DNA from: an uncultured euryarchaeote
Lineage (GTDB): Archaea > Thermoplasmatota > Poseidoniia > Poseidoniales > Poseidoniaceae
DNA: 45,600 nucleotides
Assembly: GCA_937894115.1 (NCBI GenBank)
Contig: CALBFP010000152.1
Span: forward strand, 1 to 45,600
Direction: 5' to 3'
Shown: one piece after another, positions 30,831 to 41,827 of the stretch
Numbering within the stretch: position 1 is the stretch's first letter
Layout of the letters: every line of letters begins with the position of its first letter
Made by a program: the position numbers and the translations under genes
The notes under the pieces: model-generated
Told to the model about the DNA's origin: nothing
The model's input: only the letters and a program-made list of their open reading frames with translations
Databases searched by the model: none

Positions 30831-32168
30831 TCAGCGGCGACGACCTTTCCTTGTCTTTCTTGAACGCCCATGTTGTTCGTATGCTCGACTTTGATATGCT
30901 CTTCTTTCTTGGTCATCGCTCCATATTGAGTGTTCCGATACATGGTCAGATTCAGGCACATCTTCGATGGATTCTATGCTAAGACGCAGGCCTCCGAGTT
31001 GATCTTGTAAAGCCCGAACATTCTCTCCTCCTCGTCCAACGAGCGTTGAAATCATATTGGGTGGAGCGTAAACGGTTGCAGCATCTTCGCTGGTAAATTG
31101 AACGCGTACATGAACACCTGCCCATTGACGGATTGTGTGGATTAACTGCTTTTGAGCAAGTTGGTGAAGAGGCTTTCTTCGACCTCCCTCTGCAACAGGA
31201 ACCACTGCAAGTTCAGACCCAAATGCAAACATTTCATGGGTAACGTTGCCGCTTGGAAACTCAACGACCTCGATGACCGGTCTTGCGAGTTCTTCTTGCA
31301 TTCCAGAAGGCGGTTTGACCGTCATTCGCAATTCCAATACTTGCTGTATTTGCCCTGCTTCGACGTGTAAAACCGTATCCAAGACTTGAGAAACAAGTCC
31401 TAACTCGACCTTCCCAATCAATCTTTGAATGGCCTCAAGAGCAGAATTTGCATGGGTGACTCCGAGCAATCCGACACCGGCGAGTCGGACGTCCGCAAAA
31501 ATCTCAAAGTCACGCGCTCGACGGACCTCATCAAAGATTACGAAGTCCGGGCGAACGAGGAAAATGATTTCTGCTGTTTTTTCAAGGTCCCCTTCAAGCG
31601 GAGCATATTGTGTAATTCGGTCTGCCAGTTGCAAATCTCTTGGCGCTTCCATGGTTTTGACCATTGCACCGATGTCATCATCGAGGTATTCAGCAATGGC
31701 TTGGGCAAGTGTTGTTTTCCCAGAGCCCGGGCGTCCGCAAATGAAAACACCGCGGTGATGATTGGATAGACGTTCAACAATTTTGGGGTCGAGTTGATAA
31801 TCACTAAGAGAAAGTTTTGCCACAGGCCGCACAATGGTAATTTCACGGGCATCAGAAAACGGCGGGCTTGCACAGGTGATACGCAAATCGCCGAGTTGGA
31901 GGACCTGACATCCTTTTCGATCAATTTCAAGAAAGCAATCGCTTCTTTGCTGATTATTCTCAACAATAGTCTTCAAATCTTCCTGCAAAGATTCCAATTT
32001 TAGGTTGTCCCACGCATCAACTTCAAGCTCATTGAGCGTTAGTTGGCCGATTGAACCACGCTTTACGCGTGGAAGACAGTCAGCCTTCAAGAAGATTGTA
32101 TGAACATCAGCTTCAAGCAATTGTTCCAATTCGGAAGGGAGTTCAGGATGTTCTCCGTGCTTTGCCAT
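30831..32168 (-). CDS. PilT/VirB11-like ATPase with C-terminal KH domain, no PIN domain
   Basis: About 445 residues. Walker A GRPGSGKT (145-152) and Walker B VIFDE (about 210-214), then DVRLAGVGLLGVTHANSAL, identify the type II/IV secretion-like ATPase core. A KH fold follows with the GRGG loop (378-381), and a basic, Arg-rich tail (RSRKTRKGRRR). Archaeal relatives usually carry an N-terminal PIN nuclease domain; here residues 1-50 begin in the linker (TIFLKADCLPRVKRGSIGQL corresponds to the usual SVHLKEG...AKRGxPG), so the PIN domain has been lost. An RNA-binding ATPase is likely. ATG 32168 is favoured, probably leaderless. The chaperonin gene follows 38 bp downstream and a small membrane protein gene precedes it. 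Confidence 0.87.
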   Translation of the reverse strand: MAKHGEHPELPSELEQLLEADVHTIFLKADCLPRVKRGSIGQLTLNELEVDAWDNLKLESLQEDLKTIVENNQQRSDCFLEIDRKGCQVLQLGDLRITCASPPFSDAREITIVRPVAKLSLSDYQLDPKIVERLSNHHRGVFICGRPGSGKTTLAQAIAEYLDDDIGAMVKTMEAPRDLQLADRITQYAPLEGDLEKTAEIIFLVRPDFVIFDEVRRARDFEIFADVRLAGVGLLGVTHANSALEAIQRLIGKVELGLVSQVLDTVLHVEAGQIQQVLELRMTVKPPSGMQEELARPVIEVVEFPSGNVTHEMFAFGSELAVVPVAEGGRRKPLHQLAQKQLIHTIRQWAGVHVRVQFTSEDAATVYAPPNMISTLVGRGGENVRALQDQLGGLRLSIESIEDVPESDHVSEHSIWSDDQERRAYQSRAYEQHGRSRKTRKGRRR

Positions 32169-32209
32169 GGGTGTTTTGGCCAAGTGGAGGCATTTGACAC
32201 TTCGCACAC

Positions 32210-35904: not shown

Positions 35905-36480
35905 ATGCCAGAAAACATCGAGATAGAACGACGTTTCCTTGTCGATGGCCGTCAACAACGTGTATGGATTGATGAATCTTCAGAACGCATCGAAATTCGA
36001 CAATGGTATCTTGATTCAACACAACTCAGTTTTAGGGAAAACGGAGCCATTTCTTATGGCGATGAACTTCTTGTAACCGGTATCGATCCTACAACCATTC
36101 AAAACCTAGATTCCTATCCAAACTGGACGACACGAATACGCACGTGGAACAAGACTTGTTTTTTGACATTGAAAGGACTTCAAGATGGGGCCTCAGCGAT
36201 TGAGCACGAATGGGAGATTGGCCGTGAATCTACAGATAAGATAGTTCAATCAGCAACGTATCCGTACATCGAAAAGAACCGATATCTTTGGGAAGGAAAA
36301 GACGGTCTCATTTGGGAAATCGATGAGTTTGAAGGCGATTTAGCGGGAATGATTATCGCAGAAGTCGAACTTGAGCACGTAGATTCTGAAATCGAAATCC
36401 CTTCTTGGGTTGGTATGGAATTGACGCATCTCAACGGATGGTCAAATGCTGCGCTGGCGAAGATGCTCACTCAGAAATAG
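35905..36480 (+). CDS. CYTH domain protein (triphosphatase-like)
   Basis: A 191-residue tunnel-fold protein. The N-terminus MPENIEIERRFLV fits the CYTH ExExK signature except that the final Lys is Arg. Later strands with alternating charged residues (TRIRTWNKTCFLTLKG, IEHEWEIGR, RYLWEGKDGLIWEIDEFEG, IIAEVELEH) supply the Arg/Lys/Glu set that binds triphosphate and metal. Family members hydrolyse inorganic tripolyphosphate or thiamine triphosphate, or act as class IV adenylate cyclases. ATG 35905 is chosen since the domain starts there; upstream in-frame ATGs at 35815 and later add unlike residues. The stop overlaps the 3' end of the convergent aminotransferase gene by 10 bp. Confidence 0.85.
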   Translation: MPENIEIERRFLVDGRQQRVWIDESSERIEIRQWYLDSTQLSFRENGAISYGDELLVTGIDPTTIQNLDSYPNWTTRIRTWNKTCFLTLKGLQDGASAIEHEWEIGRESTDKIVQSATYPYIEKNRYLWEGKDGLIWEIDEFEGDLAGMIIAEVELEHVDSEIEIPSWVGMELTHLNGWSNAALAKMLTQK

Positions 36481-37571
36481 GTCTCAATCGCTTTGACGAT
36501 ACGAGCACTTTCCTCATTTGTTAGGCTATGATGTACTGGGATTGAAACGAGTTGACGACACAATGCTTCTGTGACTGAAAACGTTTCATTGGCTTGTGGA
36601 TGGTTTGCGTAAACGGGGTGCATGTGGCAGGGGGTAGGATAGATTAGGCGAGCATCAATATGGAGGTCATTCATGTGCTCAACCAGTCGTTCGGCACTAT
36701 CTGTTCGGATGCAGAATTGGTGCCATGCATGGTTCGAATCTGGACGTACAGCAGGCGATTTCAGATTGGAATTTGCATCAACAACTTGCGTGAACGTTGT
36801 TGCATGAGAACGACGTTTTTCCAACCAGGCATCAAGATGAACAAGCTGTTTGCGACCGATGGCAGCGAACACTTCAGACATACGTAGGTTTGTCCCAACT
36901 TCTTGCGATTCAAGAGTTCCATCTCTTCCGTGATCAACAATGGACTTGATGCGGGCCCCAATTGCTTCATGAGAGGATGTAATCATACCACCTTCGCCCC
37001 CGACGGTTACATTTTTTGAAGGGAAAAACGAGAAACATGAGACGGTTCCCAGTGCTCCAGCCATTCTCAATTCCCCTTCAATTTCGACAGACGCCCCGTG
37101 TGCTTGTGCAGCATCTTCGATGAGGGCAATGTCTCGTTCTTGACAAAGGGTTACGAGGTCAGGATTGTAGCATTGGCCAAAAAGGTGGACGCCGATTACA
37201 GCCTTCGTCTTCGATGTAATTCGTTTTCGGACGTCTTCAACATCAAGACACCAGAAATCGTTTTCGACTTCAGCAAAGACAGGAGTTGCGCCAGTCATTG
37301 AGACGGACGTCGCAGTGGCGATGAAGGTGAACGATGGAACGATAACTTCGTCTCCCTGTTCAATTCCTAACAGTCTCAAAGCGGCGATCAACGCACCAGA
37401 ACCACTGTTGCATGGCGAAGCATATTGTGCGCCGCAATATTCAGCGAATTCTTGAGCGAAGGCCCGCCCCTGCGGGCCTTTGACCCATCGACGAGAGTCC
37501 AATGTTTCAATTGCAGCTTGACGCATTTCATCTGTCCAAGAGGGGCGTGCTAATGGAATTCGTCCAGGCAT
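36471..37571 (-). CDS. DegT/DnrJ/EryC1/StrS family PLP aminotransferase
   Basis: A 366-residue sugar aminotransferase that makes amino sugars on nucleotide carriers. The PLP lysine is K186 in SFFPSKNVTVGGEGG; D153 and Q156 in IEDAAQAHGA contact the cofactor; the N-terminal loop RRWVKGPQG and the substrate segment PSFTFIATA are typical. The C-terminal YPTPCHMHPVY segment is the usual phosphate-side motif. ATG 37571 has no strong ribosome site. It is divergent from the HerA-like gene and convergent with the CYTH gene. Together with the Gfo/Idh enzyme at 32584 it could make a diamino or acetamido sugar; the substrate is not predictable. Confidence 0.93.
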   Translation of the reverse strand: MPGRIPLARPSWTDEMRQAAIETLDSRRWVKGPQGRAFAQEFAEYCGAQYASPCNSGSGALIAALRLLGIEQGDEVIVPSFTFIATATSVSMTGATPVFAEVENDFWCLDVEDVRKRITSKTKAVIGVHLFGQCYNPDLVTLCQERDIALIEDAAQAHGASVEIEGELRMAGALGTVSCFSFFPSKNVTVGGEGGMITSSHEAIGARIKSIVDHGRDGTLESQEVGTNLRMSEVFAAIGRKQLVHLDAWLEKRRSHATTFTQVVDANSNLKSPAVRPDSNHAWHQFCIRTDSAERLVEHMNDLHIDARLIYPTPCHMHPVYANHPQANETFSVTEALCRQLVSIPVHHSLTNEESARIVKAIETYF

Positions 37572-37601
37572 GTTTCGGCGAGGGATTTGACCTTCAAGAG
37601 C

Positions 37602-40043
37602 ATGCGCCTTGACCCTTCTGCGCGTCGTTCAATTCAAGACCTGAAGCGCTTCTGCGCGTATATGGTGTCCGGTGATGAGCAACCACCTGCATCCGAATTC
37701 TCTTCACTTGTGGATGACATTCTTGACCCAGAACTATCCATGGCTCCGAAGAGACGATTCAAGCCAAAAGGCCTTTTTCTTGGCGAACGAAGGGATTCTG
37801 GAGAACCGGTTGACATCCCTTCTCAAGTCCTTGCTCGCCACGCAGCTATGTTGGGTTCAACTGGCTCAGGAAAAACAGTTATGGCGAAAGCGCTTATCGA
37901 GGAGGCAGCTCTTGCGGGCATCCCTTCGTTAATCATCGATCCACAAGGAGATCTCGCTCGCCTCGCTCTCGGTATTGATGAAACTGAACTTACTGAACGC
38001 GATGGAGATGTCGATCGGAAACGGAAATTACTGGAGAATTGCGAGGTGCGAATTTGGACTCCACTTCGGAGTAAGGGATTGCCTCTGTGCATTGACCCTT
38101 TCCGAGCTCCGCCTGCGGATTTGGACCCTGAAGAAGCCATCACTGCTTGGGACATGGTAGCAGCAGGTTTCACAAGTCTTGCAGGGTACGATGTAGAAAA
38201 AGCTCAGGGAAAAGTCGTCAAACCCTTCCTTTACGAAATACTCGTCGAAGGTACGCGATGTGGCCTTGATGTTGGCGATTTCCAATCATTGGCCCGAGTC
38301 GTCCGAGAACCTCATCATGAGTTTACACGGTTTCTGTATCCGCACTGCTTCATTGAGAGCGACGAAGATGAGAAACCGGATGTTCCGCAGTGGGACGAGG
38401 TGATGTTCGAACACCGCTTGACCGATTTCGAAGAGCGGTTACCAAAGACGACGCGCAACGACCTTGCTCGTAGGCTGGCGGCGTTTTCAAGCGGGGTCAA
38501 TCAATTGCTCTTTTCCAACGGCGTGCCAATAGACATCGATTCTTTTGCTGAAGCTGCAATTCCGGGGAAAGTACCTCTGAACATTGTCTATTTGAATACC
38601 ATTCAAGATGAGGCACAGAAGCAATATTTTGTCCAAGAACTGTCACGTGAACTGTACGATTGGATGCTGACACAACAACCGGCTGACGGAGAACTCAAAC
38701 TCCTCTTCTTCATGGATGAGGTTGCACCTTACCTTCCACCACATCCACGCAACCCTCCCGCCAAGGATTTGATTAAACTCATCTTTAAGCAAGCGAGAAA
38801 ATACGGTGTAGCCTGCGTCTTAGCAACCCAAAACGTCTCCGACGTGGATTACAAGATTCTCGCCCAAGCAAACACGACCTTCATCGGTCGGTTCACTCAA
38901 CCACAAGATGTTGAGAAGGTTCGACACTTGCTCAAGGAAAGCGGGGGCGACCAAGATCTTGTCGCCCAATTACCGACGCTCGGGCCAGGACAATTCCAAA
39001 TGGTTGCTCCCGATGTTGATCCTGCACCGGTTCCAATTCAGTGCAGATGGTTGTATACGGATCACGGAGCCCCGCTCAATGAAGATCAGGTTGAAGAACT
39101 GATTTCCACGGAGATTCGGGCCTGGGCGAAATCCCGTTCAGCGGGAAGAAAGGGTAGGGGAACTGGTGCTGCACATGCTGCGAGTCGCGGTTCCGAATGG
39201 TCAACAAACAATCCGAACGATGAATCGGAAAGCATCGTTGAGGCAGCTCGAATCCAAGCGATTGGAGGTATGACAGCAGCGAGTCGCGGAATTGTCGACG
39301 AGTCCGGATTTGAGGTGCGGCTTATGGGGGGACTTTCGGTTCTGAAGGACGGTCGAGATCCACTTTACACCATGCAGGCGGCCGTCAACAGCGTTTCTGT
39401 CATTGCATTAGCATGGGCTTTTGTTGCTCTACTTGAAGCATGGAGGATTGGAGAGATTGGTTGGTTTGGACTCGCATCAAGTGGTATCGTTACGCTTACT
39501 GTTGGTCTCTATATTTCTCTTGAGTTGATTCTTTCCCATGACTTGGTTTTGCTGCGTAAACTCGCAAAATTTGCAAGGCTGTTCCAACTCTTCCTTGTTG
39601 CTTGGATATGGGCTTTGTTTGCATGGTCGAAGTTTGGTACATTGGATTTAATGGGTCTTGATCCTTTGTTGGAAGTTGTTGTCCTCTGGGTAACTGTCTT
39701 TACAGGCATTGATATCATCAACCGATTTCGTCTTGGCAAGATTCGATGGAACGGTGGAAGTGCGTTGGATAAAGTGGTTGGTTTAACGGCCATTTTGACC
39801 GATTCTCAGATGTCTGAAATGCGTGCGAATTCAACGCAGATTTTAGGCGTATTTCGCTGGATTCTCCACGGGTTAACTGTGGTTTGGCTCACGATAATAA
39901 TCGCTTTTGCAACTCCTCTAGAGAGTGCCCCAGAGTGGCTGAATGAGATGTCAAACGTCCACCTGTGGCTTGCCTCTCTGTATGCTTTGATCTTCTTCAG
40001 TGAAGGGTGGTTGCGAATGCGCAAACGCTACATTGAACAATAA
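37602..40043 (+). CDS. HerA/VirB4-like ATPase fused to C-terminal membrane domain
   Basis: About 813 residues. The N-terminal 550 contain a DUF87/HerA-like P-loop ATPase: Walker A GSTGSGKT (85-92), IIDPQGDLA, Walker B LLFFMDE (D372/E373), and CVLATQNVSDVDYKILAQANT with the usual sensor Gln. From about residue 594 there are five or six transmembrane helices. HerA itself has no membrane part; conjugation ATPases have theirs N-terminally, so this arrangement is unusual. ATG 37602 is taken (a TTG 15 bp upstream is in frame). The linker about 520-560 is Gly/Ser/Arg-rich. It may move DNA or protein at the membrane. The neighbouring gene at 40063 encodes another membrane protein on the other strand. 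Confidence 0.87.
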   Translation: MRLDPSARRSIQDLKRFCAYMVSGDEQPPASEFSSLVDDILDPELSMAPKRRFKPKGLFLGERRDSGEPVDIPSQVLARHAAMLGSTGSGKTVMAKALIEEAALAGIPSLIIDPQGDLARLALGIDETELTERDGDVDRKRKLLENCEVRIWTPLRSKGLPLCIDPFRAPPADLDPEEAITAWDMVAAGFTSLAGYDVEKAQGKVVKPFLYEILVEGTRCGLDVGDFQSLARVVREPHHEFTRFLYPHCFIESDEDEKPDVPQWDEVMFEHRLTDFEERLPKTTRNDLARRLAAFSSGVNQLLFSNGVPIDIDSFAEAAIPGKVPLNIVYLNTIQDEAQKQYFVQELSRELYDWMLTQQPADGELKLLFFMDEVAPYLPPHPRNPPAKDLIKLIFKQARKYGVACVLATQNVSDVDYKILAQANTTFIGRFTQPQDVEKVRHLLKESGGDQDLVAQLPTLGPGQFQMVAPDVDPAPVPIQCRWLYTDHGAPLNEDQVEELISTEIRAWAKSRSAGRKGRGTGAAHAASRGSEWSTNNPNDESESIVEAARIQAIGGMTAASRGIVDESGFEVRLMGGLSVLKDGRDPLYTMQAAVNSVSVIALAWAFVALLEAWRIGEIGWFGLASSGIVTLTVGLYISLELILSHDLVLLRKLAKFARLFQLFLVAWIWALFAWSKFGTLDLMGLDPLLEVVVLWVTVFTGIDIINRFRLGKIRWNGGSALDKVVGLTAILTDSQMSEMRANSTQILGVFRWILHGLTVVWLTIIIAFATPLESAPEWLNEMSNVHLWLASLYALIFFSEGWLRMRKRYIEQ

Positions 40044-40062
40044 TGTCTGAAAATGTCTTGGA

Positions 40063-40806
40063 CTACTTTCGCAACCCACCACGCGCCCATTGGGTGTCAA
40101 CTTCAAGTTCTGGGTGGTAATTTGAGCGACGAACAACCCGACGTTGTTGTTTCGCGGCATCTCTTGGAACTTCTTCTGGGCTGTTGCGTTTTTTGTGCCA
40201 TCGTTGGACAAGGAGACTGACGAGAACACACGGGATAACAAGCAGCGGAGCTAATGAGGACTCGAGGTCCAAGTATTCCATCGGTAATTCGAGAATGATG
40301 CAGGCCCCAACATAGAGGCCAATTGAAGCGAGGAGAGCAGCAACAATCGGGGGTAAAATGTGACGAAACGACATGCCCACAAAGAAGGCGATAATCGCCG
40401 TTATGCCGGGCAGCAATTCGCCACGCTCAGGATTGATGCCGTAGTTTTTCAACAACTGAATTCCATTGGAAATGACGATGAAGACGAATCCGGTCGCGAG
40501 CAAACGAATTGACATCGAAGTAATCATCACTGCGATAATAGCAAATGCCATTGCGGAAAAGAGCTGAAACCGATCGAGGGTAAGTGCGAGACCAAGGTCG
40601 AGCACATAGGGGTAAAGCGTACTTGCGGAAAGGTATCCAATGGCAGCTCCTGCGATAGCAGTGATGAGGCTCAATCTCCGATATCCTTGAACAAACAGAT
40701 AGATTGAGAGAACAACAATTGGAACCGCCGTGACGTAACCTCCATCGACAATCTGCGTGATGACAGTATCGCGAATGTTGTCCACGTTCGGAGCATCCTC
40801 TACCAT
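40063..40806 (-). CDS. Polytopic membrane protein, unknown function
   Basis: About 247 residues with around seven transmembrane helices, beginning at about residue 22 (VTAVPIVVLSIYLFVQGY) and ending at about 203. A polar basic tail of 45 residues (KKRNSPEEVPRDAAKQQRRVVRR) follows, probably cytoplasmic. It resembles the DUF4203-like membrane proteins in pattern, without certain homology. ATG 40806 is preferred to a GTG three codons upstream. It is encoded just downstream of the tRNA-Leu gene on the same strand and convergent with the HerA-like gene (gap 19 bp). Confidence 0.75.
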   Translation of the reverse strand: MVEDAPNVDNIRDTVITQIVDGGYVTAVPIVVLSIYLFVQGYRRLSLITAIAGAAIGYLSASTLYPYVLDLGLALTLDRFQLFSAMAFAIIAVMITSMSIRLLATGFVFIVISNGIQLLKNYGINPERGELLPGITAIIAFFVGMSFRHILPPIVAALLASIGLYVGACIILELPMEYLDLESSLAPLLVIPCVLVSLLVQRWHKKRNSPEEVPRDAAKQQRRVVRRSNYHPELEVDTQWARGGLRK

Positions 40807-40990: not shown

Positions 40991-41827
40991 TTAGAAGAAG
41001 ATTGAACAGCACGTGATTGACCCATCACCCTCTCGAATCTGATCCATGTCAAGGACGATAGGCTTCAACCCCTTTTGCTTGAGTGTCTCAAGAACGGTAG
41101 GGTAGCCCTTGGCAACCAAAACATTGCCGTTTTCAAATCCAATTGTGTTGCATCCATAGACTTCTTCTTCTGGCATCATGATGACTTCACAGTCATCGGG
41201 AAGTTCACCGAAATCTTCTGGAGTGAGATAGCCCTCTGCAGCGAGAATAATCTTGTCTGTCGGCGTGGATGAAATCGATGTGAGGTGCAGTGCTTTGTCA
41301 GTAGGTATGTCGATGATCCGAAGTTCATGTCCGAGGTGGCTCAAGAGGTCTCGAAGGGTTTCAATTCCTTGTTCGTTGGTACGTTGTGAACGACCAACAA
41401 AGAAAATGTCCCCAAGCCGGAGAATGTCCCCACCATCCATTCGCGCTTCGCCGAACATTCCACAGACTTGAAACCCGTTGAGTTGTCGAGACAAGAAATC
41501 AGCGATGGGGGGTTGCTCCGCAACTCGAGAAGGGTGGCCAGGCACGGGCAACAAAACGTGGCCGTCGATGACAATTGCCTGATCCTCGACAAAGATACAA
41601 TCTGGGTGTCTTTCATCTGCTGGTAAAATCGTGACCTCGAGCCCGCAATCCAAGAGCGACTGAACATAGGCCGCATGCTGCTTTTTTGCAAGAGGGATGT
41701 CGGTTGGTCCCGAACCGAAGTAACTGGCTAAAGCCCTCGAGAATGAATTTGGCACAGCCCGCATGAGGGCGCGCTGCTTCTGGTCCGTGCGGACAGTAGC
41801 CATGATTGACCGGCCCATCTTCGTCAT
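40991..41827 (-). CDS. Dimethylargininase-like amidinohydrolase (DDAH family)
   Basis: A 278-residue enzyme of the amidinotransferase/DDAH superfamily, which hydrolyses methylated or free arginine-type guanidino groups to citrulline. Key residues: FVED (79-82), the MDGGDIL segment (130-136), the catalytic His H181 in ALHLTS, and the nucleophile C273 at the C-terminus in ITCCS. The length is typical. ATG 41827 is taken; ATG 41803 would also keep the domain, and neither has a good ribosome site. It lies upstream of the tRNA-Leu gene and divergent from the M28 lipoprotein gene (72 bp). True substrate could be dimethylarginine, arginine or another guanidino compound. Confidence 0.88.
   Translation of the reverse strand: MTKMGRSIMATVRTDQKQRALMRAVPNSFSRALASYFGSGPTDIPLAKKQHAAYVQSLLDCGLEVTILPADERHPDCIFVEDQAIVIDGHVLLPVPGHPSRVAEQPPIADFLSRQLNGFQVCGMFGEARMDGGDILRLGDIFFVGRSQRTNEQGIETLRDLLSHLGHELRIIDIPTDKALHLTSISSTPTDKIILAAEGYLTPEDFGELPDDCEVIMMPEEEVYGCNTIGFENGNVLVAKGYPTVLETLKQKGLKPIVLDMDQIREGDGSITCCSIFF

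Follow-up and report, generated by a model that had tools for sequence, protein, structure and literature searches.

What does a HerA-type ATPase do when it is joined at its C terminus to a membrane domain and encoded with no nurA beside it? The gene that raises this question lies in a stretch of 45,600 nucleotides (the window) at the start of contig CALBFP010000152.1, and its host is an archaeon of the Poseidoniaceae (marine group II). The initial annotation, made from the sequence alone, described a P-loop ATPase of HerA/VirB4 style joined to five or six C-terminal transmembrane helices and proposed either a membrane-bound DNA translocase or a defence or secretion ATPase. The ATPase is of a known kind and its joining to a membrane domain appears to be a new architecture, in which the combination of motor and membrane anchor is well supported. 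The features of the locus are as follows.

36471..37571, minus strand: DegT/DnrJ/EryC1 aminotransferase (Pfam), the divergent neighbour, constant but not shown to be a partner
37602..37661, plus strand: upstream in-frame stretch, probably a 5' leader between the divergent genes (TGA inside it in several congeners)
37662..40043, plus strand: whole gene with its revised start, 793 aa (upstream in-frame stops in congeners, recurrent Met, alignment of 23 rows)
37662..37772, plus strand: short variable N terminus, residues 1-37, in place of the HAS barrel (23 rows)
37773..39086, plus strand: HerA-clade RecA-like ATPase with a helical insertion, residues 38-475 (Pfam, PDB sequence and structure matches)
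37854..37877, plus strand: Walker A, GSTGSGKT, invariant in 23/23 rows
38703..38720, plus strand: Walker B, LFFMDE, invariant in 23/23 rows
38820..38834, plus strand: LATQN strand, invariant in 23/23 rows
39087..39359, plus strand: linker, basic and Gly/Ala rich, of low model confidence, residues 476-566 (alignment and model)
39360..40019, plus strand: predicted six-helix membrane domain, residues 567-786 (AlphaFold2 models, loop charges)

The open frame runs on the plus strand from TTG 37587 or ATG 37602 to the stop at 40043. The gene had initially been placed at 37602-40043, of which the stop stands; translation probably begins at ATG 37662, which is residue 21 in the earlier reader's frame. 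The reason is that several congeners (e.g. L009, L011 and L013-L017) carry a TGA in frame ahead of the equivalent codon, whereas most other loci repeat a Met there (MVS.../MSE...). With this start, positions 37572-37661 would be the spacer between two divergent genes. Recoding of the in-frame TGA was considered and rejected, as the congener stops examined sit upstream of the revised start. The reading frame is not due to chance, being kept in the loci of 100 relatives with a dN of 0.06-0.12 against a saturated dS in comparisons with five of them, and the gene is under strong purifying selection, membrane domain included. Conservation is highest in the motor, lower in the membrane domain and lowest in the linker. 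The family alignment holds 23 representatives at <88% identity, taken from 100 ORFs of >700 aa after exclusion of rows containing X, and it omits L028, L029 and L030 owing to a motif filter.

The motor belongs to the FtsK-HerA superfamily, and within it to the HerA clade, as seen from its Walker A, its Walker B with the DE pair, a Gln strand and a DUF87/HerA-type core; the LATQN stretch is what we take to be the sensor Gln strand of FtsK-HerA type. Three Pfam entries exceed their gathering cut-offs, namely the DUF87/HerA central domain (44.2 against 23.2 bits), HerA_C (38.4 against 22 bits) and TrwB_AAD_bind (35.7 against 20.5 bits), and these matches, together with hydropathy and the AlphaFold2 helices described below, bear out the first reading of a P-loop HerA-style ATPase fused to a C-terminal membrane domain. 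FtsK_SpoIIIE reaches 17.5 bits against a cut-off of 24, and NCBIfam helicase_HerA 32.1 bits against 970, a very strict value that every genome of the phylum sample and 14 controls also miss. The top PDB sequence matches are to defence HerA (8wiv, E 5.4e-12; 8xau, 3.5e-10), and the best PADLOC matches are likewise to HerA (72.8 bits) and mad8 (65.3 bits). In the AlphaFold2 model, which is weak at full length (mean pLDDT 59.9, pTM 0.39), residues 33-471 align to DndH-C, HerA, TdpA, VirB4, TrwB and the STIV packaging ATPase with Z of 9-13, and residues 33-463 align to residues 112-459 of Sulfolobus HerA with a Z of 12.9 and an rmsd of 4.8 over 241 aligned residues.

The N-terminal HAS barrel of HerA is absent, since the structural alignment begins only at residue 112 of the Sulfolobus protein and at residue 148 of that from Thermococcus. 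When canonical HerA rows are compared with the family profile, their aligned part begins no earlier than residue 134, and in the 23 rows a mere 55-95 residues precede Walker A, residues 1-37 carrying a recurrent motif, L..LV.DIL, along with a basic patch. Scores against the family ATPase profile fall from 383-392 bits for a set of soluble Thermoplasmatota orphans (L142-L144) to 127-134 bits for a second Thermoplasmatota group (L145-L149), 107-123 bits for three bacterial plasmid proteins, 45-61 bits for canonical HerA, 9.5 bits for R388 TrwB and about zero for VirB4/TraC, which favours restricting the earlier label 'HerA/VirB4 style' to the HerA clade. The tree that the initial annotation had called for, built from 32 rows (11 of the 23 family representatives, 7 of 9 canonical HerA and 14 others), places the Poseidoniaceae motors in a clade of their own (support 100/99) and canonical HerA in a separate one (100/100); the middle of this tree is unsure because of long branches.

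In the domain order of the protein the motor comes first and six predicted C-terminal helices come last. By hydropathy the window protein has five membrane segments at its C terminus, and the last 38% of the 23 rows has five in 12, four in nine and three in two, with no N-terminal segment in 21 rows and one in the other two. AlphaFold2 places six helices, at residues 567-595, 601-626, 628-658, 667-692, 714-749 and 758-786 of the 793, so the original count of five or six was apt, and the domain modelled alone again gives six long helices (pLDDT 73.7, pTM 0.69). The positive loops suggest that both termini are cytoplasmic (N-in, C-in). No Pfam family matched this domain and a Foldseek search of the PDB returned nothing with E <0.6; among the fold matches listed, rows of Z up to 8.8 were set aside, values of that size being given by helical bundles by chance. 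Among the described systems that we compared none has the same domain order, and the accessible text of the literature searched mentions no HerA-type ATPase with a C-terminal membrane domain; the superfamily survey of Iyer et al. (2004) may describe something close.

The host group itself is distinctive in what accompanies this gene. A genome-wide check for a herA-nurA pair, also proposed at the outset, found in the host's own genome a single PF01935 match, which is this gene, with neither NurA nor canonical HerA. HerA_C exceeds its cut-off in seven of nine genomes, in that of the window through this gene only, and FtsK_SpoIIIE exceeds its own in none of the nine. The lack of an adjacent nurA that had been noted extends to the whole genome and to Poseidoniales at large, as NurA (PF09376) was found in 0/45 genomes of the order. 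In the phylum sample NurA occurs in 46/194 genomes, with none of the listed matches in Poseidoniales, and the helicase_HerA profile finds relatives at E 1e-20 in 105/194, none of them in Poseidoniales; several f27 genomes (e.g. G146 and G104) have HerA and NurA matches side by side. These are thus cells without detected canonical HerA or NurA (in the Poseidoniales genomes searched) or FtsK (in the nine genomes); MAGs are incomplete, although one of the genomes, G033, consists of a single contig. The apparent loss of HerA and NurA across the order raises the question of how DNA breaks get resected there.

With the single protein as query, relatives were found in 31/60 genomes, comprising 30/36 of its own family (the window's genome counted) and 1/24 of the sister family. 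The family profile matches 77/389 Thermoplasmatota genomes: 63/71 Poseidoniaceae (in G288 and G397 through the C-terminal part alone), four genomes of the sister family (G373 and G379, again over the C-terminal part only) and ten elsewhere in the phylum, where it matches the motor part only. ORFs were inspected in eight of these ten and lack the C-terminal membrane domain. A profile of the membrane domain matches 68 of the 389 genomes, 64 in the window's family and four in the sister family, and none outside these two. The eight Poseidoniaceae genomes below the profile threshold include the three genomes sampled from genus g3 (G025, G035 and G358). With no match over the threshold in these eight, and none in the bulk of the sister family, an essential part in segregation throughout Poseidoniales can be ruled out for the protein. 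A wider contig search, which used whole-protein patterns and not the membrane domain by itself, kept 80 of 137 confirmed loci, and these are almost all Poseidoniales, Poseidoniaceae or Euryarchaeota by annotated name. One of them, L032 (CALDQY010000057.1), is a record labelled Rhodobiaceae with an archaeal locus of 92% identity and the same synteny, and so a mixed or mislabelled genome. A viral origin or use was rejected, as none of the 84 candidate stretches that the family profile gave in viral contigs was confirmed, and phages gave no match to the family. A plasmid origin was likewise set aside, the three matching records covering the ATPase part only at 27-29% identity.

Across the 89 loci compared, the DegT aminotransferase gene lies upstream and divergent in 76, three ending before its position and ten differing, and beyond it a CYTH protein follows in 66 of those 76. 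The 76/89 should not be read as independent species: several loci share genomes, a single contig stands behind both L157 and L022, G030 contributes L156 and L157 on separate contigs, and some loci taken from the relatives' genomes repeat loci of the wider contig search. The ORF-based synteny is also coarse, as the longest ORFs were taken and some lengths are too long. The two G030 copies (contigs C43 and C39) are near-equal with similar flanks, either a duplication or an assembly artefact. An operon partner was sought and rejected, the downstream genes varying between nitroreductase-like (24/89), SOUL-like (17/89) and others that are fewer, where both names are a reading of the sequences and not a library match. 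No nurA and no constant defence effector or other partner was seen in the window and the 88 other loci, and no Xer, division or segregation gene was linked to the ATPase gene in the neighbourhoods examined.

The other window genes scanned are housekeeping-like or without assignment. Among them are a T2SSE-type ATPase with a KH domain match (30834-32207, minus strand), which recurs upstream in some relatives' loci, and an arginine deiminase/DDAH-like hydrolase (40994-41827, minus strand). At 40043-40063 the window lacks a nitroreductase-like ORF of 235 aa that in close relatives (e.g. L031, L032 and L033) sits between the ATPase gene and that of a small membrane protein, and that is absent from L037 too.

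Beyond the main family there are divergent fused copies, one in G022 (L028, 37% identical, in the window's genus) and others in the sister family (L030 and L153). L028 (575-4264, minus strand) and L030 (270-3125, minus strand) are each preceded by a related gene (32% over 95 aa, E 8e-12), perhaps forming a two-gene system; no relatives of L028 or of its upstream gene were found in viral contigs. The membrane domain also occurs alone as an ORF, in G379 and G373 (260 and 257 aa) and in G397 (364 aa, acidic towards its N terminus). The G379 and G373 ORFs are 81% identical in unrelated loci, sharing 813 bp of DNA at 87% identity between unrelated flanks, and the former follows tRNA-Gln; this pair (L150, 7524-8303, minus strand, with the tRNA-Gln beside it; L151, 7379-8149, minus strand) resembles a small unit that is mobile or was moved horizontally. 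Their dN/dS is 0.34, a far weaker constraint than that on the fusion. In L152 (4152-5243, plus strand), of genus g4, an acidic, repeat-like N-terminal part replaces the motor before the membrane domain.

Taken together, these data are best accounted for by a membrane-tethered, hexameric double-stranded DNA translocase with a housekeeping, FtsK-like role, to which we give a probability of roughly 0.4. Six copies would form a cytoplasmic ring under the membrane, held by six C-terminal six-helix anchors through the flexible basic linker, and this ring would pump double-stranded DNA with ATP. We infer such a ring because the leading structural relatives of the motor are pumps of this kind and because the HAS domain, which makes the NurA contacts in Thermococcus HerA (accessible portion of PMC12977600), serves NurA docking. 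Hexamer and topology are predictions in this scheme, and DNA as the substrate is a prediction from homology; of the membrane-bound translocase proposed in the initial annotation, the membrane-bound HerA type without NurA is supported, and DNA translocation is put forward on the strength of the motor's relatives. A housekeeping role appears likeliest, given that the gene is conserved through vertical descent, keeps no fixed partner and belongs to cells in which neither canonical HerA nor NurA nor FtsK was detected. By analogy with FtsK, and as a guess, chromosomal DNA might be moved or cleared at the membrane during segregation and division; the available part of PMC12977600, a 2026 paper, states that archaea are without FtsK and that HerA may take part in archaeal cell division. 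The stand-alone membrane domains count against this explanation, as they may have a job without the motor. A bolder and rather doubtful extension is that in Poseidoniales HerA-NurA gave way to a HerA-clade pump tethered to the membrane and doing the work of FtsK, a chromosome translocase that would have evolved independently, with a new type of six-helix anchor also able to move and act alone.

The rival that survives best, although we hold it unlikely, is a DNA import or export pump whose motor drives DNA through a channel, the six-helix domain being part of that channel or its dock. Membrane-associated HerA/VirB4-like or HerA-type ATPases of DNA transfer provide the precedent, in CedB and CedD and in the hexameric TdtA, and there are weak NCBIfam matches to CedD (38.4 bits) and CedB (27.6 bits), although these are far below the cut-offs of 600 and 700, as is VirB4_CagE at 28.9 against 643.1. 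However, Pfam recognised no CedA/VirB6, pilin or relaxase among the 27 window proteins scanned, no constant channel-like neighbour accompanies the gene, VirB4-type ATPases score close to nothing with the family profile, and CedD has the reverse domain order. The neighbourhood also gives no support to the secretion ATPase first suggested.

Less probable again is an ATPase acting on something other than DNA, such as a protein or envelope polymer, or in membrane remodelling or stress, with the membrane domain as its functional part. The stand-alone ORFs of 257-364 aa would fit this, as would neighbours of nucleotide-sugar type (DegT, Gfo/Idh), but the weak constraint on the membrane-only ORFs tells against it, the DegT gene is divergent and not co-transcribed, and the structural matches of the motor are led by DNA or T4SS pumps. 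A membrane-fixed translocase against invaders, which would meet DNA as it enters, is improbable: the PADLOC and PDB matches to defence HerA favour it, as does the two-gene arrangement of L028 and L030, yet no nuclease, SIR2, DUF4297 or other effector adjoins the window copy, and the synteny is fixed in most loci, with the family not found in viral contigs, in phages or, with its membrane part, on plasmids. Defence genes usually come and go, and the vertical inheritance seen here likewise speaks against the defence ATPase of the initial annotation. Finally, a plain HerA that has lost NurA and still resects DNA ends, with the membrane part a neutral addition, would suit the only HerA-clade protein found in the genome but is very improbable given the missing NurA dock, the separate, fully supported branch of canonical HerA and the purifying selection on the membrane domain.

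If the protein is a membrane-anchored DNA pump as preferred here, one of the commonest archaeal groups of the surface ocean would have a direct candidate for the counterpart of FtsK, relevant to how archaea clear DNA from the division site, and the FtsK-HerA superfamily would have arrived at a membrane machine by a second, independent route.

Set against known systems, the protein shares with canonical HerA (Sulfolobus 4d2i, Thermococcus 9x1m) the RecA-like motor, the HerA/DUF87 signature and an alignable part after the HAS domain, but differs in having neither a HAS barrel nor a genomic NurA, in its C-terminal six-helix domain and in its separate branch of the tree. The HerA proteins of defence systems (SIR2-HerA, DUF4297-HerA) and mad8 are the best sequence matches of the motor, whereas the Poseidoniales gene is without an effector partner or HAS part and is chromosomal with fixed synteny. 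A capture model for HerA in defence exists (accessible text of PMC12839542), and none of its partners occurs at this gene. TdtA of Thermus, which acts in DNA donation, forms a HerA-type ATPase hexamer at the membrane; its cytoplasmic-membrane location was inferred, it is also present in the soluble fraction, and it is encoded beside a nurA homologue (PMC5365140, in the portion available), whereas in Poseidoniales the anchor is built into the protein and nurA is absent. CedB and CedD are crenarchaeal membrane proteins with HerA/VirB4-like ATPases that import DNA in Sulfolobales, and in CedD a TM domain and an NTD precede the C-terminal ATPase, the reverse of the order found here (PMC11868833, as far as its open sections describe them). 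The closest motors found outside Poseidoniales are those of the soluble orphans L142, L143 and L144, which differ in having no predicted membrane segment and other C termini, for example zinc ribbons in L144. FtsK/SpoIIIE belongs to the same superfamily and offers, by inference, the likeness of a membrane-anchored DNA pump. In FtsK the membrane helices are N-terminal and the motor, with its gamma domain, is C-terminal, an order that the Poseidoniales protein reverses, with its motor N-terminal and its helices C-terminal.
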